Below, in pieces: positions 23,641 through 28,266 of a stretch of 50,014 nt of DNA. The stretch is taken from assembly GCA_017403285.1 (NCBI GenBank), contig JAFQOI010000119.1, forward strand, positions 1 to 50,014, written 5' to 3'. Positions within the stretch are counted from its first letter, which is position 1; each line of letters starts with the position of its first letter. This stretch comes from a bacterium (GTDB taxonomy: Bacteria > Cyanobacteriota > Vampirovibrionia > Gastranaerophilales > Gastranaerophilaceae). The position numbers were made by a program, and so were the translations under genes. The notes under the pieces were generated by a model, which was not told the DNA's origin, ran no database searches, and saw only the letters and a list, made by a program, of their open reading frames with translations.

Positions 23641-23704
23641 TTAGATGTCAAATTATATTTTCACAAGTTTTAAAAATTTTGTATATCAAGAGAGAGAAAA
23701 TGAA

Positions 23705-25651
23705 ATGAATATAAGACCTACATCCTATAAAACAAATTTCGGAAGAGCGTTTACAACAGAAGAAACTATTGCTTATTCAAAATTACTTAATGAATCAAGA
23801 AACAATCTTGGATTAAAAGATACATCAAGTATAATTTTTGATTTTAATGTTCCATCAAAAGATGGGCAAAACCCAGCGATTGGAACAACATGGTCATCTT
23901 CAATGATACCATTCATAAATTTTGTAAAAAACATGACAGGAATGAATTCAATCCAACTTGCACCGCAAGGCAAAATAAAACAAGGAAATACATCCCCTTA
24001 TTCTGGTACTACATTTGCATTTGGAGAACATATAATTGATTTGGCAAAACTTACAACTTCAGAATATGGAAATTTACTTCCAATTTCTCTTCTTTTAGGA
24101 ATAGACAAGAAATATCCAAAAGACAGACAAACAAGAGAATATAAAACTGATTATCCTTTTGTATTAGGTACATATAATGAACAAGGCATTCAAGAAAAAT
24201 CTCTTCAAATTGCATTTAAAAACTTCAAAACAAAAGTAGAAGAAGAAAATCCTTCAATCAAAAAATTAAATAAAGAATTTTCAATTTTTAAAGAAAAAAA
24301 TGCGAAATGGCTTGAAAAAGAAGCATTATTTATCTCACTAACAAAATTATATGGAAATGATGATTTTGAAACTTGGAGCGAAATAGATAAAAATCTATTT
24401 AGCCAATTAACAAGTGAAGAAAGCAGACAAGAAAGAATTTCAGAATTAAAAACTCAATTCAAAAATGACATAGAATTTGAAGAATTTAAACAATTTATTG
24501 CAGATAAACAACAAAAAGAAAGTCATAAAACGCTAAACGAAGAAGACATTAAACTATATGGCGATTGTTTACTCGGATTTTCAAGAAGTGAAATGTGGGC
24601 AAATAAAGATTGTTTTAGAAAAAACTTATATTATGGCGGACCTGACCCAAATTGCCCTGAAACAAACTATATCCAAACATGGGGACTTCCTGCACTTGAT
24701 TATACAAAACTAGGAGAATGCTCTAGTAATGGAGATACTTCAAAACTTGGCATTGTTGGACAACTCCTTTTCGACAAATATACAACATTTTTTGAAAGAT
24801 ATGATGGAATAAGAGTAGATGCTGCTTGGCAATTTATAACTCCATTTATTTATCAGGAAACTAATGGTAATTTTGAAGAAATCAAGATGCCAGAAGTTAA
24901 TAATACTATTTTTAACATCATGAACGCCGCACAAAAGAAATTAAATGAACAAAATACAATAATGCTTGAGATGCTAGGACTATCCGCAGACAAAGGCAGA
25001 GCGGCAACATTAAACAAATACCCTCATTTATATTCAACAGCTTACGCCGAATATGATGAATCTCCTGCTAAATTTTTAGAAAAAGGTTATAAAGACGGTA
25101 TGTTTTATGCTGGAGTTGGAAATCACGACAATGACTCTTTAATAAATATGGCTCTTGATTCCGAAAAAAGAGATTTGCACTTATTTGGGCTGAAAAGAGA
25201 TTATAACCTAAATGAAAATTCTCTAAAATTTGAAAGCCAAGAATACAAGCAACAGTCTAGAAAAGAACAAAGATTGGAAGATTTTAGAACAGCAAAACTT
25301 GCAGAAGTCTTTACCTCTCAAAAACAATTTTTCACGCTTCCTGACATGTTTGGAATGGCAGAAAGAATAAATATTTCTGGGAAAGCGGATGAAAGCAATT
25401 GGTCAGTCAGAATTCCTACAAATTATGAAAGATTCTATTTTACTCAATTATCAAACGGTTATGGAATGAACATGCCAAAAATTTTAGCAATGGCAATGGA
25501 AATGAAAAACTCAAATAAAGACCAAACACTAATTAATAAATGTCATGAAGCAGCAGAAATATTGAGACAAAAAGGACCAATGACGCAATATGAAGCAGAC
25601 ATAGCAGATAGAGAAGGACAAATTGGACAGAAATTTGAATTTTCAATATAA
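23705..25651 (+). CDS. 4-alpha-glucanotransferase (GH77, MalQ-like)
   Basis: A divergent GH77 amylomaltase of 648 residues that would transfer maltooligosaccharide segments between glucans. GH77 landmarks: GDCLLGFSRSEMWAN, YIQTWGLPALDY, IRVDAAW with nucleophile D372, MLEMLG with acid/base E422, and GNHDND with D475, then PDMFGMAERIN and SNWSVRIP. The N-terminus MNIRPTSYKTNFGR carries the xFG peptide seen in other genes here. I start at 23705, where AGAGAGA lies upstream, and not at the ATG at 23645, which lacks a ribosome site. It is divergent from the leaderless gene and monocistronic. Confidence 0.9.
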   Translation: MNIRPTSYKTNFGRAFTTEETIAYSKLLNESRNNLGLKDTSSIIFDFNVPSKDGQNPAIGTTWSSSMIPFINFVKNMTGMNSIQLAPQGKIKQGNTSPYSGTTFAFGEHIIDLAKLTTSEYGNLLPISLLLGIDKKYPKDRQTREYKTDYPFVLGTYNEQGIQEKSLQIAFKNFKTKVEEENPSIKKLNKEFSIFKEKNAKWLEKEALFISLTKLYGNDDFETWSEIDKNLFSQLTSEESRQERISELKTQFKNDIEFEEFKQFIADKQQKESHKTLNEEDIKLYGDCLLGFSRSEMWANKDCFRKNLYYGGPDPNCPETNYIQTWGLPALDYTKLGECSSNGDTSKLGIVGQLLFDKYTTFFERYDGIRVDAAWQFITPFIYQETNGNFEEIKMPEVNNTIFNIMNAAQKKLNEQNTIMLEMLGLSADKGRAATLNKYPHLYSTAYAEYDESPAKFLEKGYKDGMFYAGVGNHDNDSLINMALDSEKRDLHLFGLKRDYNLNENSLKFESQEYKQQSRKEQRLEDFRTAKLAEVFTSQKQFFTLPDMFGMAERINISGKADESNWSVRIPTNYERFYFTQLSNGYGMNMPKILAMAMEMKNSNKDQTLINKCHEAAEILRQKGPMTQYEADIADREGQIGQKFEFSI

Positions 25652-25665
25652 TATGCAAATAAAAC

Positions 25666-25692
25666 AAAAGAGCCCCTTTCGAGGCTCTTTTT
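25666..25692. terminator. Bidirectional terminator after the GH77 gene
   Basis: AAAAGAGCC (25666-25674) and GGCTCTTTT (25683-25691) pair around CCCTTTCGA-type loop sequence, with a T run on the plus strand and A-rich flank giving U on the other. It separates the GH77 gene from the convergent Gly-rich gene. Confidence 0.8.
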
Positions 25693-25716: not shown

Positions 25717-26526
25717 TTAACCAAGGTTTTGTAATTTTTCTTTCATACCTTCAACATCATCTTTTAACATTTTCTTAACTACGTCGTTTTGAGCATCTAA
25801 CATTTTAACGACTGTTTCAATATTTTTAATCTTATTTTCTAAAACAACGTCAGCATTATTTAAAATACTACTTGAAACTTTTTGATAAGCAGCAAGTGGA
25901 GCACTTGAAATACCTTGAAGTAAGTTACCAATTAAGGTTGTTCCCAAACCAAATGAATCCAAATATGGAGACATTGCTTGTAAAATACCACCAAAACCAG
26001 ATATAACACCAGCAGCAGGAAGTAAGAAACTATCACCAAACCCAAAACCTGATGCCAAACCTGCGGTATATGTTAAAGCATTAACACCTGCAGAACCTGC
26101 AACTTCAGCAACAGAAGTCAATGAGGACGCACCACCAGTTAGATATCCTGCTTGAGATGTTGTACCAAAACCTTGTATAACGTTGGCTGCACCACCAGTA
26201 AATCCTGGGTATTGAGATAAAGAACCAATACCAAAAGCAGAATTTGTTCCACTTGTTAAATTAGATGGTGTCCAATATGAAGTACCAGGAATGTTTAAAG
26301 CAGTACCACCACCCATTGCAGACATAAATGAACTTGGAGCAATCATACTTGCAAGCTTCCAAAGGAAACTGCCCGCTGTACCAAATCCAGCGCCATCAGA
26401 TGCAGCACCAGAAACAGTTATATCTCTTAATAGGTCATATGTTTCAAATAATACAGCTTTTGCATCGCCGCTTAAACCGCCATATTTATTAGAAATAACT
26501 AAATAACTGTCATTTTTATAACTCAT
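25717..26526 (-). CDS. Gly/Ala/Ser-rich protein with C-terminal coiled coil, unknown
   Basis: Not recognised. The 269 residues have a short N-terminal region (MSYKNDSYLVISNKYGGLSG), a long low-complexity Gly/Ser/Ala/Thr-rich middle (about 40-210) with repeated GFG, TGGA and FGIG-like motifs, and a Lys/Glu/Val-rich C-terminal coiled coil (about 225-269). There are no cysteines and no signal peptide, a composition common in structural or surface proteins. AAGGA lies about 10 bases before the ATG. It follows the filament-like gene by 64 bases in the same direction, so the two are probably coexpressed. Confidence 0.75.
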   Translation of the reverse strand: MSYKNDSYLVISNKYGGLSGDAKAVLFETYDLLRDITVSGAASDGAGFGTAGSFLWKLASMIAPSSFMSAMGGGTALNIPGTSYWTPSNLTSGTNSAFGIGSLSQYPGFTGGAANVIQGFGTTSQAGYLTGGASSLTSVAEVAGSAGVNALTYTAGLASGFGFGDSFLLPAAGVISGFGGILQAMSPYLDSFGLGTTLIGNLLQGISSAPLAAYQKVSSSILNNADVVLENKIKNIETVVKMLDAQNDVVKKMLKDDVEGMKEKLQNLG

Positions 26527-26590
26527 CTCTTACATTCCTTACCTGTGTTTTTTGATGTTTGCTTACTGCCTTTTCAAAACATTTGCACTA

Positions 26591-27601
26591 CTATGCAAAT
26601 GTTTTGAATGTATTTTCAATATTCTTAGACAATACTTCTTTTACTGCTTCAATTTCTGTACTAATTTCGTTTTGTTCTGTTTCGATTTGATTCAATCTCA
26701 ATTCAAGAACTTTATCTTCTTGTTGAAGTGATTCTGTTTGAGCATTTAAGTCTGCAACTGCTTTGTTGTATTCATCTTTGCTCATTGTATAGTCAACTAA
26801 TGCAGCTTCATAACCTGCTGAATCATATGTTTTTGTTGCATTAACATCTTTTTGTGCGAACTCACCATTATTTGGAGTAATAGAATTGATTCTTCCAGTT
26901 GTTTCATCAAATCCCATAGTCGCATTGTTGAATTCAAATGGTTCTGTTTTTGTAACATTTCCTATTGTGTAATAGTAAACATTGGTTGGATTAACTTCGT
27001 CATTTTTGTGATCCATTTGATATTGTGAGAAGTAATATGTAACACCTGTTTTTGCATCTTTGTAATAATATAGATTATCGTTTTGAATATCTTCAGCACT
27101 TACATTTTTATAAGCACCTTCTTCTTGCATATATTCTTTAATTTTTGCAGAAGTTGAATCTGAAGCAAGAGTAAGTTCGATTGAATCTTCACTACCTATT
27201 GGTTTATAAGTATATTTAGAGCCAATAACATTCTCTTCTTCATCTTTTATTTCTTCCATTGCAATTGTAGAACCATCAACCCATTTTCCGGTAGCACCTT
27301 CTTTAGAATAAGTACGAGTACCTTCTACATGGTAGCCTGAATCTTGTTTATAGTAGTTTGTAATTGTATAACCACCATCTAAATTTTCAGTACCAGTTAC
27401 TTCAAAAGTATATGTTGTTGAATAATATTCAGTTGCTTCTGGTGCAACAGGAACATTTAATGACAACAATTTGTTATATAAAGAGTTTACCTCTTCTGCG
27501 AGAGCCATACGTTGTTGGTTTACTTGCTGACCTTCATATTCTACGTTGGATTTTCTTGCTGTAAGACCTAAAAATCTTGCTTGTGATGCTGCTAAACCCA
27601 T
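26591..27601 (-). CDS. Filament-like protein with terminal helices and beta-rich centre, unknown
   Basis: No named family assigned. Residues 1-45 (GLAASQARFLGLTARKSN, then EYEGQQVNQQR) form an amphipathic helical region. The middle (about 50-275) is Thr/Tyr/Asn/Asp-rich and beta-like. The last 60 residues are a coiled coil with heptads (EDKVLELRLNQIETEQNE) ending in NTFKTFA. Helical ends around a variable centre, no Cys and no signal peptide recall flagellin or hook-type proteins, but there are no flagellar genes here. I start at the ATG at 27601, where GGAG lies 7 bases upstream; an in-frame ATG at 27637 lacks one. Confidence 0.8.
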   Translation of the reverse strand: MGLAASQARFLGLTARKSNVEYEGQQVNQQRMALAEEVNSLYNKLLSLNVPVAPEATEYYSTTYTFEVTGTENLDGGYTITNYYKQDSGYHVEGTRTYSKEGATGKWVDGSTIAMEEIKDEEENVIGSKYTYKPIGSEDSIELTLASDSTSAKIKEYMQEEGAYKNVSAEDIQNDNLYYYKDAKTGVTYYFSQYQMDHKNDEVNPTNVYYYTIGNVTKTEPFEFNNATMGFDETTGRINSITPNNGEFAQKDVNATKTYDSAGYEAALVDYTMSKDEYNKAVADLNAQTESLQQEDKVLELRLNQIETEQNEISTEIEAVKEVLSKNIENTFKTFA

Positions 27602-27882
27602 TTTCGTTCTCCATTTTCTGATTGTTACTCTGTCCATGTTATCGACCGACTTTTCATGAACTTTAGCCGCTGACTCGACATGTTAAGTTATGTTAACAAA
27701 ACATTCAAAATCCTCATTTTAATAGGCTTTTTACACAGGAGAAATTTACTTACCTGCTACATACTTAATGATTTTTTTCTTAAAGGCAAGAAAATATCCA
27801 AACAAAATTTTGTATACATCATATTTAAAAAGTTAATAATAAATTCAAAATGATAAATTTTAAGTTATTGCAAATTAGACAA
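27602..27882 (-). promoter_or_regulatory. Long untranslated leader/promoter region
   Basis: About 280 bases without a supported gene lie upstream of the filament-like gene. Reading the minus strand, TTGAAT and TATGAT (19-base spacer) near 27805-27850 are weak promoter candidates, which would give a 5' leader of about 200 bases. It contains the near-repeats TGTTAACATAACTTAACATG, and no riboswitch class I recognise. Confidence 0.35.
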
Positions 27883-27929: not shown

Positions 27930-28160
27930 TTATTTATATAGATTTAATGCCATACAATTATTTAGATTTTTTCTTAAATTCATAAGTCTGACATTCATCT
28001 GATTTTTTAAATTTTGACATCTAATCGTATCTGCAATGATATTAAATTCCATATCCGCGAGCGAATTATGACGAATAGTTGTAGGGATATACGCTTTAGC
28101 ATCTGTTACTAAAGCTCTATCAGTAGAACTAATTCCATAACTTGTTGGTGATATTCTCAT
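27930..28160 (-). CDS. Small helical protein, unknown
   Basis: A 76-residue protein starting MRISPTSYGISSTD; its first residues resemble MNIRPTSYKTNFG of the GH77 enzyme. The rest is helical and basic (DTIRCQNLKNQMNVRLMNLRKNLNN), perhaps a small coiled coil. GGAG stands 6 bases before the ATG at 28160; an in-frame GTG at 28172 would absorb that ribosome site and is rejected. A TTGTAG-18-TATACT pair upstream is a plausible promoter. Monocistronic, with its own terminator. Function unknown. Confidence 0.7.
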   Translation of the reverse strand: MRISPTSYGISSTDRALVTDAKAYIPTTIRHNSLADMEFNIIADTIRCQNLKNQMNVRLMNLRKNLNNCMALNLYK

Positions 28161-28266
28161 TAGAATCTCCACTTGTAACTTGTAGTATAATTACTTGTCA
28201 TAACATTCTACAACAAACAATGCACAAAAATAAAGTTGTTGTTTCTGTTACTTTTGTTAAGTTTTA

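Follow-up and report, generated by a model that had tools for sequence, protein, structure and literature searches.

Non-flagellar type III secretion systems (T3SS) arose from the flagellum in the analysis of Abby and Rocha, which found SctF similar to FliC and FlgL and defines these systems by the absence of flgB, flgC, and fliE (PMC3459982). Lysobacter enzymogenes, a non-flagellated bacterium, has a working flagellar-type export apparatus in a new use; its genes act on twitching, and the portion of that report cited here describes no dedicated new filament-like partner (PMC7277350). Closer to our subject, Di Rienzi et al. listed 13 flagellar genes common to the first Melainabacteria genomes, including two flhA, two flgG, flgC, fliF, fliH, fliI, fliP, fliQ, fliR, and flhB, and saw in them a single flagellum and its loss; that MEL.A1 has no filament, cap, junction, or L/P rings they took as a sign of ongoing reduction (Di Rienzi et al., 2013; PMC3787301). 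Here we describe a gene pair, A and B, at positions 25,717 to 27,601 on the minus strand of a 50,014-nucleotide stretch of DNA (the window; contig JAFQOI010000119.1 of assembly GCA_017403285.1) from a member of the Gastranaerophilaceae, class Vampirovibrionia. A and B, with two further proteins, C and D, that follow them in other families, probably either form part of a second export apparatus of flagellar type (type III) or are its substrates, with A as its external filament.

The export genes of this genome appear to be a second system and not the remains of a flagellum, and this system fits neither the definition of a flagellum nor that of an injectisome. It shares with the flagellar export apparatus and hook-basal body FlhA, FlhB, FliP, FliQ, FliR, FliO, FliF, FliE, FliH, FliI, a FliM/N-like protein, FlgB, FlgC, and FlgF/G-like proteins, but its FlhA belongs to a second clade and its FliG-like protein shows no Pfam match to the middle or torque domains of FliG. 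Injectisomes, including the early Myxococcales type, have the same export-gate families without a motility filament; here, however, flgB, flgC, and fliE are all present, which places the system outside the published T3SS definition (PMC3459982). The gene set of Di Rienzi et al. is much the same as that found here, with flgE additionally listed there, and the portion of their account used here makes no mention of a second system or of A, B, C, and D (PMC3787301). A description of A-B or of a second apparatus was not found in the open literature, outside which most subscription papers lie.

The second apparatus and its FlhA

The export genes are distributed over several contigs of the genome: one (L270) carries two flgF/G-like genes, flgB, flgC, a transglycosylase gene, fliE, fliF, and a fliG-like gene, another (L091) fliH, flhA, and fliI, a third (L113) a fliM/N-like gene, fliO, fliP, fliQ, and fliR, and a further one flhB. 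Genome G006 has a cluster of two FlgF/G-like proteins, FlgB, FlgC, the transglycosylase, FliE, FliF, a FliG-like protein, FliH, FlhA, and FliI, the counterpart of which is split over two contigs in our genome. FlhA, FlhB, FliP, FliQ, and FliR of our genome were assigned by Pfam, FliI through its similarity to the Pfam-assigned protein of G006, and flgB, flgC, and fliE by Pfam in G006 (the best match of FlgC being Flg_bbr_C), with homologues in our genome. Across a nearer set of 58 genomes including our own, the FlhA family FHIPEP is present in 57, FliP in 56, and FlhB in 54. The first-pass annotation of the window had recorded that no flagellar or type III genes were present. That is true locally, but a flagellar-type export apparatus lies on other contigs of the same genome, and in sister genera the absence does not hold even near A-B, which there adjoins the apparatus.

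Because flagellin and hook-size proteins were not found, we conclude that the system is not a flagellum. Flagellin matches occur in 23 of the 58 genomes, namely in 21 of 22 genomes from other families of the order and in two of 35 from the genus of our genome, which itself has none. Matches to Flg_bbr_C number two in our genome and two to three in its genus, against six to nine in the other-family genomes of the order (with two exceptions among the 22, G047 with two and G038 with three). No frame of hook or hook-associated protein size (440-570 aa) was found among the genus members listed, whose frames are of about 149 and 235-249 aa. A Pfam search of three FliG-like proteins gave no FliG_C or FliG_M domain. 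A lone full-length flagellin-like gene was seen in this flagellin-poor genus (L119:8834-9850, G003:C32), with no other flagellar genes recognised within the 13.7 kb read.

In a phylogenetic tree, 50 FlhA sequences of Vampirovibrionia divide into 19 flagellar-type and 31 second-type rows, each with 100/100 support, and the second-type proteins of B-bearing lineages form one clade of 23 (100/100). Both the flagellar and the second clade span several orders, and flagellated genomes in several orders carry both types. Since flagellated relatives hold both, and the two fall into different clades, the second FlhA is distinct from the flagellar protein; the FlhA of our genome is thus an ancient paralogue and does not group with the flagellar FlhA that its flagellated relatives carry. 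The second-type FlhA of families f9, f14, and f15 is 57-68% identical to the G006 protein. That of families f10-f12, which are without B, falls outside the B-bearing clade and is 44-48% identical to the G006 protein; long branches meet in this tree, and we draw no conclusion from the precise sister group of f10-f12. One genome (L261, G044:C11:11830-16114) has a flagellar and a second-type FlhA gene end to end in convergent orientation.

The distribution of B follows that of the export apparatus. Among 194 genomes of the class, FHIPEP is found in 140 and B in 113, all of them among the 140, while B is found in none of the 54 genomes without FHIPEP. Of the 27 genomes with FHIPEP and without B, 24 come from families f10-f12, which leaves three across the five B-carrying families: G144, which is also without a full-length second FlhA; G162, whose contig starts just past the place of B and retains C and D; and G137, which is 56% complete. 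B and the second FlhA gene (flhA2) lie on one contig in 35 of 91 comparable genomes, always 7.8-18.9 kb apart, and in the nine linked loci that we read (chosen for linkage, the unchosen figures being 35/91 and the 0/32 given below) A, B, C, and D come first in this order, followed by one to several other genes and then by fliE, fliF, a fliG-like gene, fliH, and flhA2. G053, from another family, carries an A-type gene about 5.7 kb past the last gene of the cluster. The pair had been proposed to be lineage-specific, which holds at the level of the class but not more narrowly, B being present in several families of other orders; the best 80 named B loci are mostly labelled as Candidatus Gastranaerophilales or as bacteria without a name, and many come from gut metagenome bins.

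Architecture of A, B, C, and D

Protein A is built like flagellin, yet by sequence it is not flagellin. Gene A (26591..27601, minus strand, stop included) encodes 336 aa beginning MGLAASQARFLGLTARK, as delimited by the open reading frame, the family of relatives, their alignment, and the structural model. An ATG at 27637 would extend it in frame by 12 residues to 348 aa (27602..27637, minus strand), an extension that is probably untranslated because the majority of relatives begin at MGLAASQ, the conserved start being MGLAASQAR; a GGAG at 27609..27612 (minus strand) is the likely ribosome-binding site. The AlphaFold2 model, made from an input alignment of 49 sequences, has a mean predicted local distance difference test score (pLDDT) of 92.3 and shows a helix at residues 2-46 (27464..27598, minus strand), a beta-rich region at about residues 60-259, and a 75-residue helix at residues 261-335 (26597..26821, minus strand) ending in NIENTFKTF. 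Among 32 same-genus orthologues (496 pairs), mean pairwise identity is 94% at the N-terminal end, 42% in the central insert (about residues 59-259; 26825..27427, minus strand), and 83% at the C-terminal end. The helical ends and variable beta centre expected by the first-pass annotation are thus borne out; the model is that of no globular enzyme, which excludes such a fold for A, and the centre is far from the strict conservation between strains that would speak against a filament subunit.

The A family is present in 56 of the 58 genomes. The paralogues with conserved ends and different middles that the earlier annotation proposed to look for occur in the same genome, and there are several per genome, these counts being at least what is present. 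Upstream of B, A ranges from 109 to 733 aa in length, besides one 85-aa fragment, and its length is 109-113 aa, with no middle domain, in the four loci that we read in other orders. With flagellin, FlgL, and FlgK, A shares N- and C-terminal helices around a variable beta middle, conserved ends, and structural matches at Z 8-10, whereas it has no match to PF00669 or to flagellin, FlgB/C/E/F/G, or FliE profiles, and its members in other orders lack the middle domain altogether.

Structural comparison points to axial proteins of the flagellum. The top Foldseek match of A is a Salmonella flagellar cap-filament chain (E 0.022; none passes 0.001), and the first 16 of 50 VIA-align rows are chains of the flagellar filament, junction, cap, or rod, or belong to a filament-assembly complex, the title of which does not mention the flagellum; these 16 rows align 80-134 residues at Z 7.7-9.9, although a Z under about 13 cannot decide the matter where long helices are compared. 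Titles of flagellar axial or assembly type account for 26 of the 50 rows. Sequence searches gave a different picture: Pfam and NCBIfam returned sub-threshold matches only for A and B, for A mainly coiled-coil families, A has no match to flagellin up to E 1, and the genome has no PF00669 match. Sequence comparison excludes A from the flagellin, rod, hook, and FliE families, so that the proposed likeness to flagellin or hook-type subunits stands in structure and in the pattern of end and centre conservation, but not as sequence homology. The needle family SctF does not appear in a Pfam scan of 22 members, among the 25 of 75 weak families listed, or among 48 weak sequence matches in the PDB. The low-scoring coiled-coil matches of A in Pfam, NCBIfam, and the PDB were judged to be coiled-coil noise.

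Gene B (25717..26526, minus strand) is single-copy, encodes 269 aa, and lies directly downstream of A on the same strand with a spacing of 64 bases, so that the interval 25717-27601 runs exactly from the B stop codon to the conserved start of A. A is directly upstream in 103 of 109 distinct B genes, three of the others lying at contig edges and three having no preceding A; B without A directly upstream was seen in a small group of relatives (L218, L221, and L222), in one of which, L221, a fliI-like gene lies about 5 kb from B. As had been suggested, B has a Gly/Ser/Ala-rich core (residues 41-200: 20% Gly, 13.8% Ala, 13.8% Ser) and a C-terminal helical region, modelled at residues 193-268 (25723..25950, minus strand) and confident from about residue 231 only. 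Its mean identity within the genus is 86%. Mean pLDDT of the B model is 44.5, with blocks from residue 231 at 62-80, and the model was excluded from the fold search. Two PDB sequence matches of B, one to an antibody chain and one to an unrelated designed protein (E 0.07-0.14), were rejected, and a match between its C-terminus and short A (26.7% probability) was too weak for use. The absence of cysteine from A and B was confirmed in both sequences. Neither has a signal-peptide-like hydrophobic N-terminus, in agreement with the earlier annotation and as judged from a hydropathy scan, with no dedicated predictor run; the highest 19-residue hydropathy is 0.45 in A and 1.58, at residue 167, in B, where residues 157-186 form a hydrophobic stretch.

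Other families encode three further proteins after A-B, one of about 76 residues, then C (about 92 residues) and D (about 108 residues). D is homologous to A and lacks its middle domain, and profiles of short A and D match each other at 98.8% probability. Downstream sequence of 2 kb or more is available for 65 distinct B loci, and C follows in 42, D in 41, and both in 41; in our genome, C and D are on a different contig (L010). The loop motif of D may resemble the needle subunit PrgI, but homology of D to needle subunits on this ground was not confirmed. In the linked loci that we read in sister genera, D is directly followed, on the opposite strand, by the gene of a protein of about 200 aa with a NRITEGVGKKIVEALK-like start (L131:6233-6868 and equivalents), with weak Pfam matches only.

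A putative filament and its alternatives

In the arrangement that we consider probable, A, B, C, and D would need no signal peptide for export: they would pass through the FlhA/FlhB/FliPQR gate, with FliHI and the membrane potential supplying the energy, and the basal body would consist of the FliF ring, FliE, and a rod of FlgB, FlgC, and FlgF/G-like proteins. A would polymerise on this rod through its conserved N- and C-terminal helices, giving an external filament or needle that exposes the variable beta domain as flagellin does. The Gly-rich and conserved B may cap, join, or tip the A filament, and C and D may be helical adaptors or minor subunits; surface location and these separate roles are predictions. 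The whole apparatus would be distinct from the flagellum and retained in a flagellin-less genus. A wider scenario is conceivable but somewhat doubtful: Vampirovibrionia might have an ancient third machine of the flagellar lineage, a rod-bearing export apparatus that would be neither flagellum nor injectisome, with its own filament protein grown from a helical hairpin of about 110 residues by insertion of variable surface domains in its loop, a convergent reinvention of flagellin, and flagellum-less gut members might have kept it to touch host or microbial cells.

Several observations weigh against the proposed filament. Structural matches of A at Z 8-10, with a Foldseek E of 0.02 at best, are weak for long helices; comparison of A and D with profiles of flagellin, FlgB, FlgC, FlgE, FlgF/G, FliE, and FliJ, built from the same genomes, gave probabilities below 2% throughout; and the fold of B is not modelled reliably apart from its C-terminal helix. 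B is present in 52 of the 58 nearer genomes and was not found in five that have FHIPEP (G002, G035, G036, G047, and G049). A-B and flhA2 are on separate contigs in 56 of the 91 comparable genomes and in the genus of our genome, where the A paralogues of our genome are also located away from the export system. In none of the 32 named-collection B loci that extend 9.5 kb or more downstream does that stretch contain fliE, fliF, or flhA; linkage therefore marks certain related genera and was lost or never present elsewhere. Finally, the gene inventory, the FlhA clade, co-occurrence, linkage in sister genera, and the fold and conservation pattern of A are observed, whereas export and polymerisation are inferred.

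These points bear differently on the alternatives. The absence of linkage in the genus of our genome, together with the reduction reported as ongoing in MEL.A1 (PMC3787301), would suit the view, that of earlier papers as to these genes, that the export genes are the decaying remnant of a lost flagellum and A-B an unrelated surface or cytoplasmic pair, but a remnant is hard to reconcile with a second FlhA that is distinct from the flagellar one and coexists with it, with FHIPEP frames intact in nearly all genomes, and with A, B, C, and D lying beside the cluster in all nine of the loci chosen for linkage; we consider it improbable. Conserved helical ends, a conserved B, and a flagellar-axial fold suit a polymer better than they suit secreted, non-structural translocators or effectors that act on host or neighbour cells through the variable domain of A, and the 109-113-aa forms of other orders have no central domain that could act in this way. 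The great length variation of the centre, the several paralogues per genome, and the hydrophobic stretch of B do favour such a role, which we regard as unlikely, if the least unlikely of the alternatives.

It is similarly hard to see A, C, and D as cytosolic coiled-coil chaperones or FliJ-like export factors rather than substrates, since a beta domain that is hypervariable within one genus would be unusual for a chaperone and the FliJ profile matches A and D at 1.7% probability or less; the sequences of D and short A do suggest a helical hairpin, which, like the lack of a signal peptide, would be expected of such factors, to which we give little credence. The filament reading offers a function for genes that were published as a broken flagellum in gut Melainabacteria, and it puts forward candidate external proteins without a family in Pfam and NCBIfam scans. 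If it is true, a supposedly decaying flagellum becomes a working, undescribed surface structure, and a surface appendage is added to a widespread, largely uncultured gut lineage. How flagellum-derived export machines gain outer structures is an unsettled part of the problem of injectisome origins, for which the system may also serve as a test case.

Further features of the genome and window

An additional FlhA-related protein of 487 aa (L092:8982-10445, G000:C110) matches the cytoplasmic domain of FlhA (PF00771, 2e-51, profile positions 321-652) without the membrane part; it might serve the export system as a soluble factor on which chaperones dock. Matches of this type occur in nearly every genome of the order searched; the gene adjoins FliJ in G045 and lies directly upstream of A in G013. 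Further fragmentary proteins of this kind are found in our genome and a few relatives (L093:8921-10414 and L094:2747-3388; G000:C159 and C147), with stop codons in the frame of one match.

Within the window, an AGGA at 26536..26539 (minus strand) is the likely ribosome-binding site of B, and a terminator-like hairpin of 11 pairs with a T tail (25666..25691, minus strand) downstream of B ends the A-B unit; the scan found two such hairpins against 1.1 expected in shuffled sequence. A hairpin between A and B was dropped, many relatives being without it. A 4-alpha-glucanotransferase-like protein encoded at 23645-25651 (Pfam 8.8e-29) shares a similar short stretch near the N-terminus with an 80-aa open reading frame at 27930-28172 (IRPTSYKT and RISPTSYGI).
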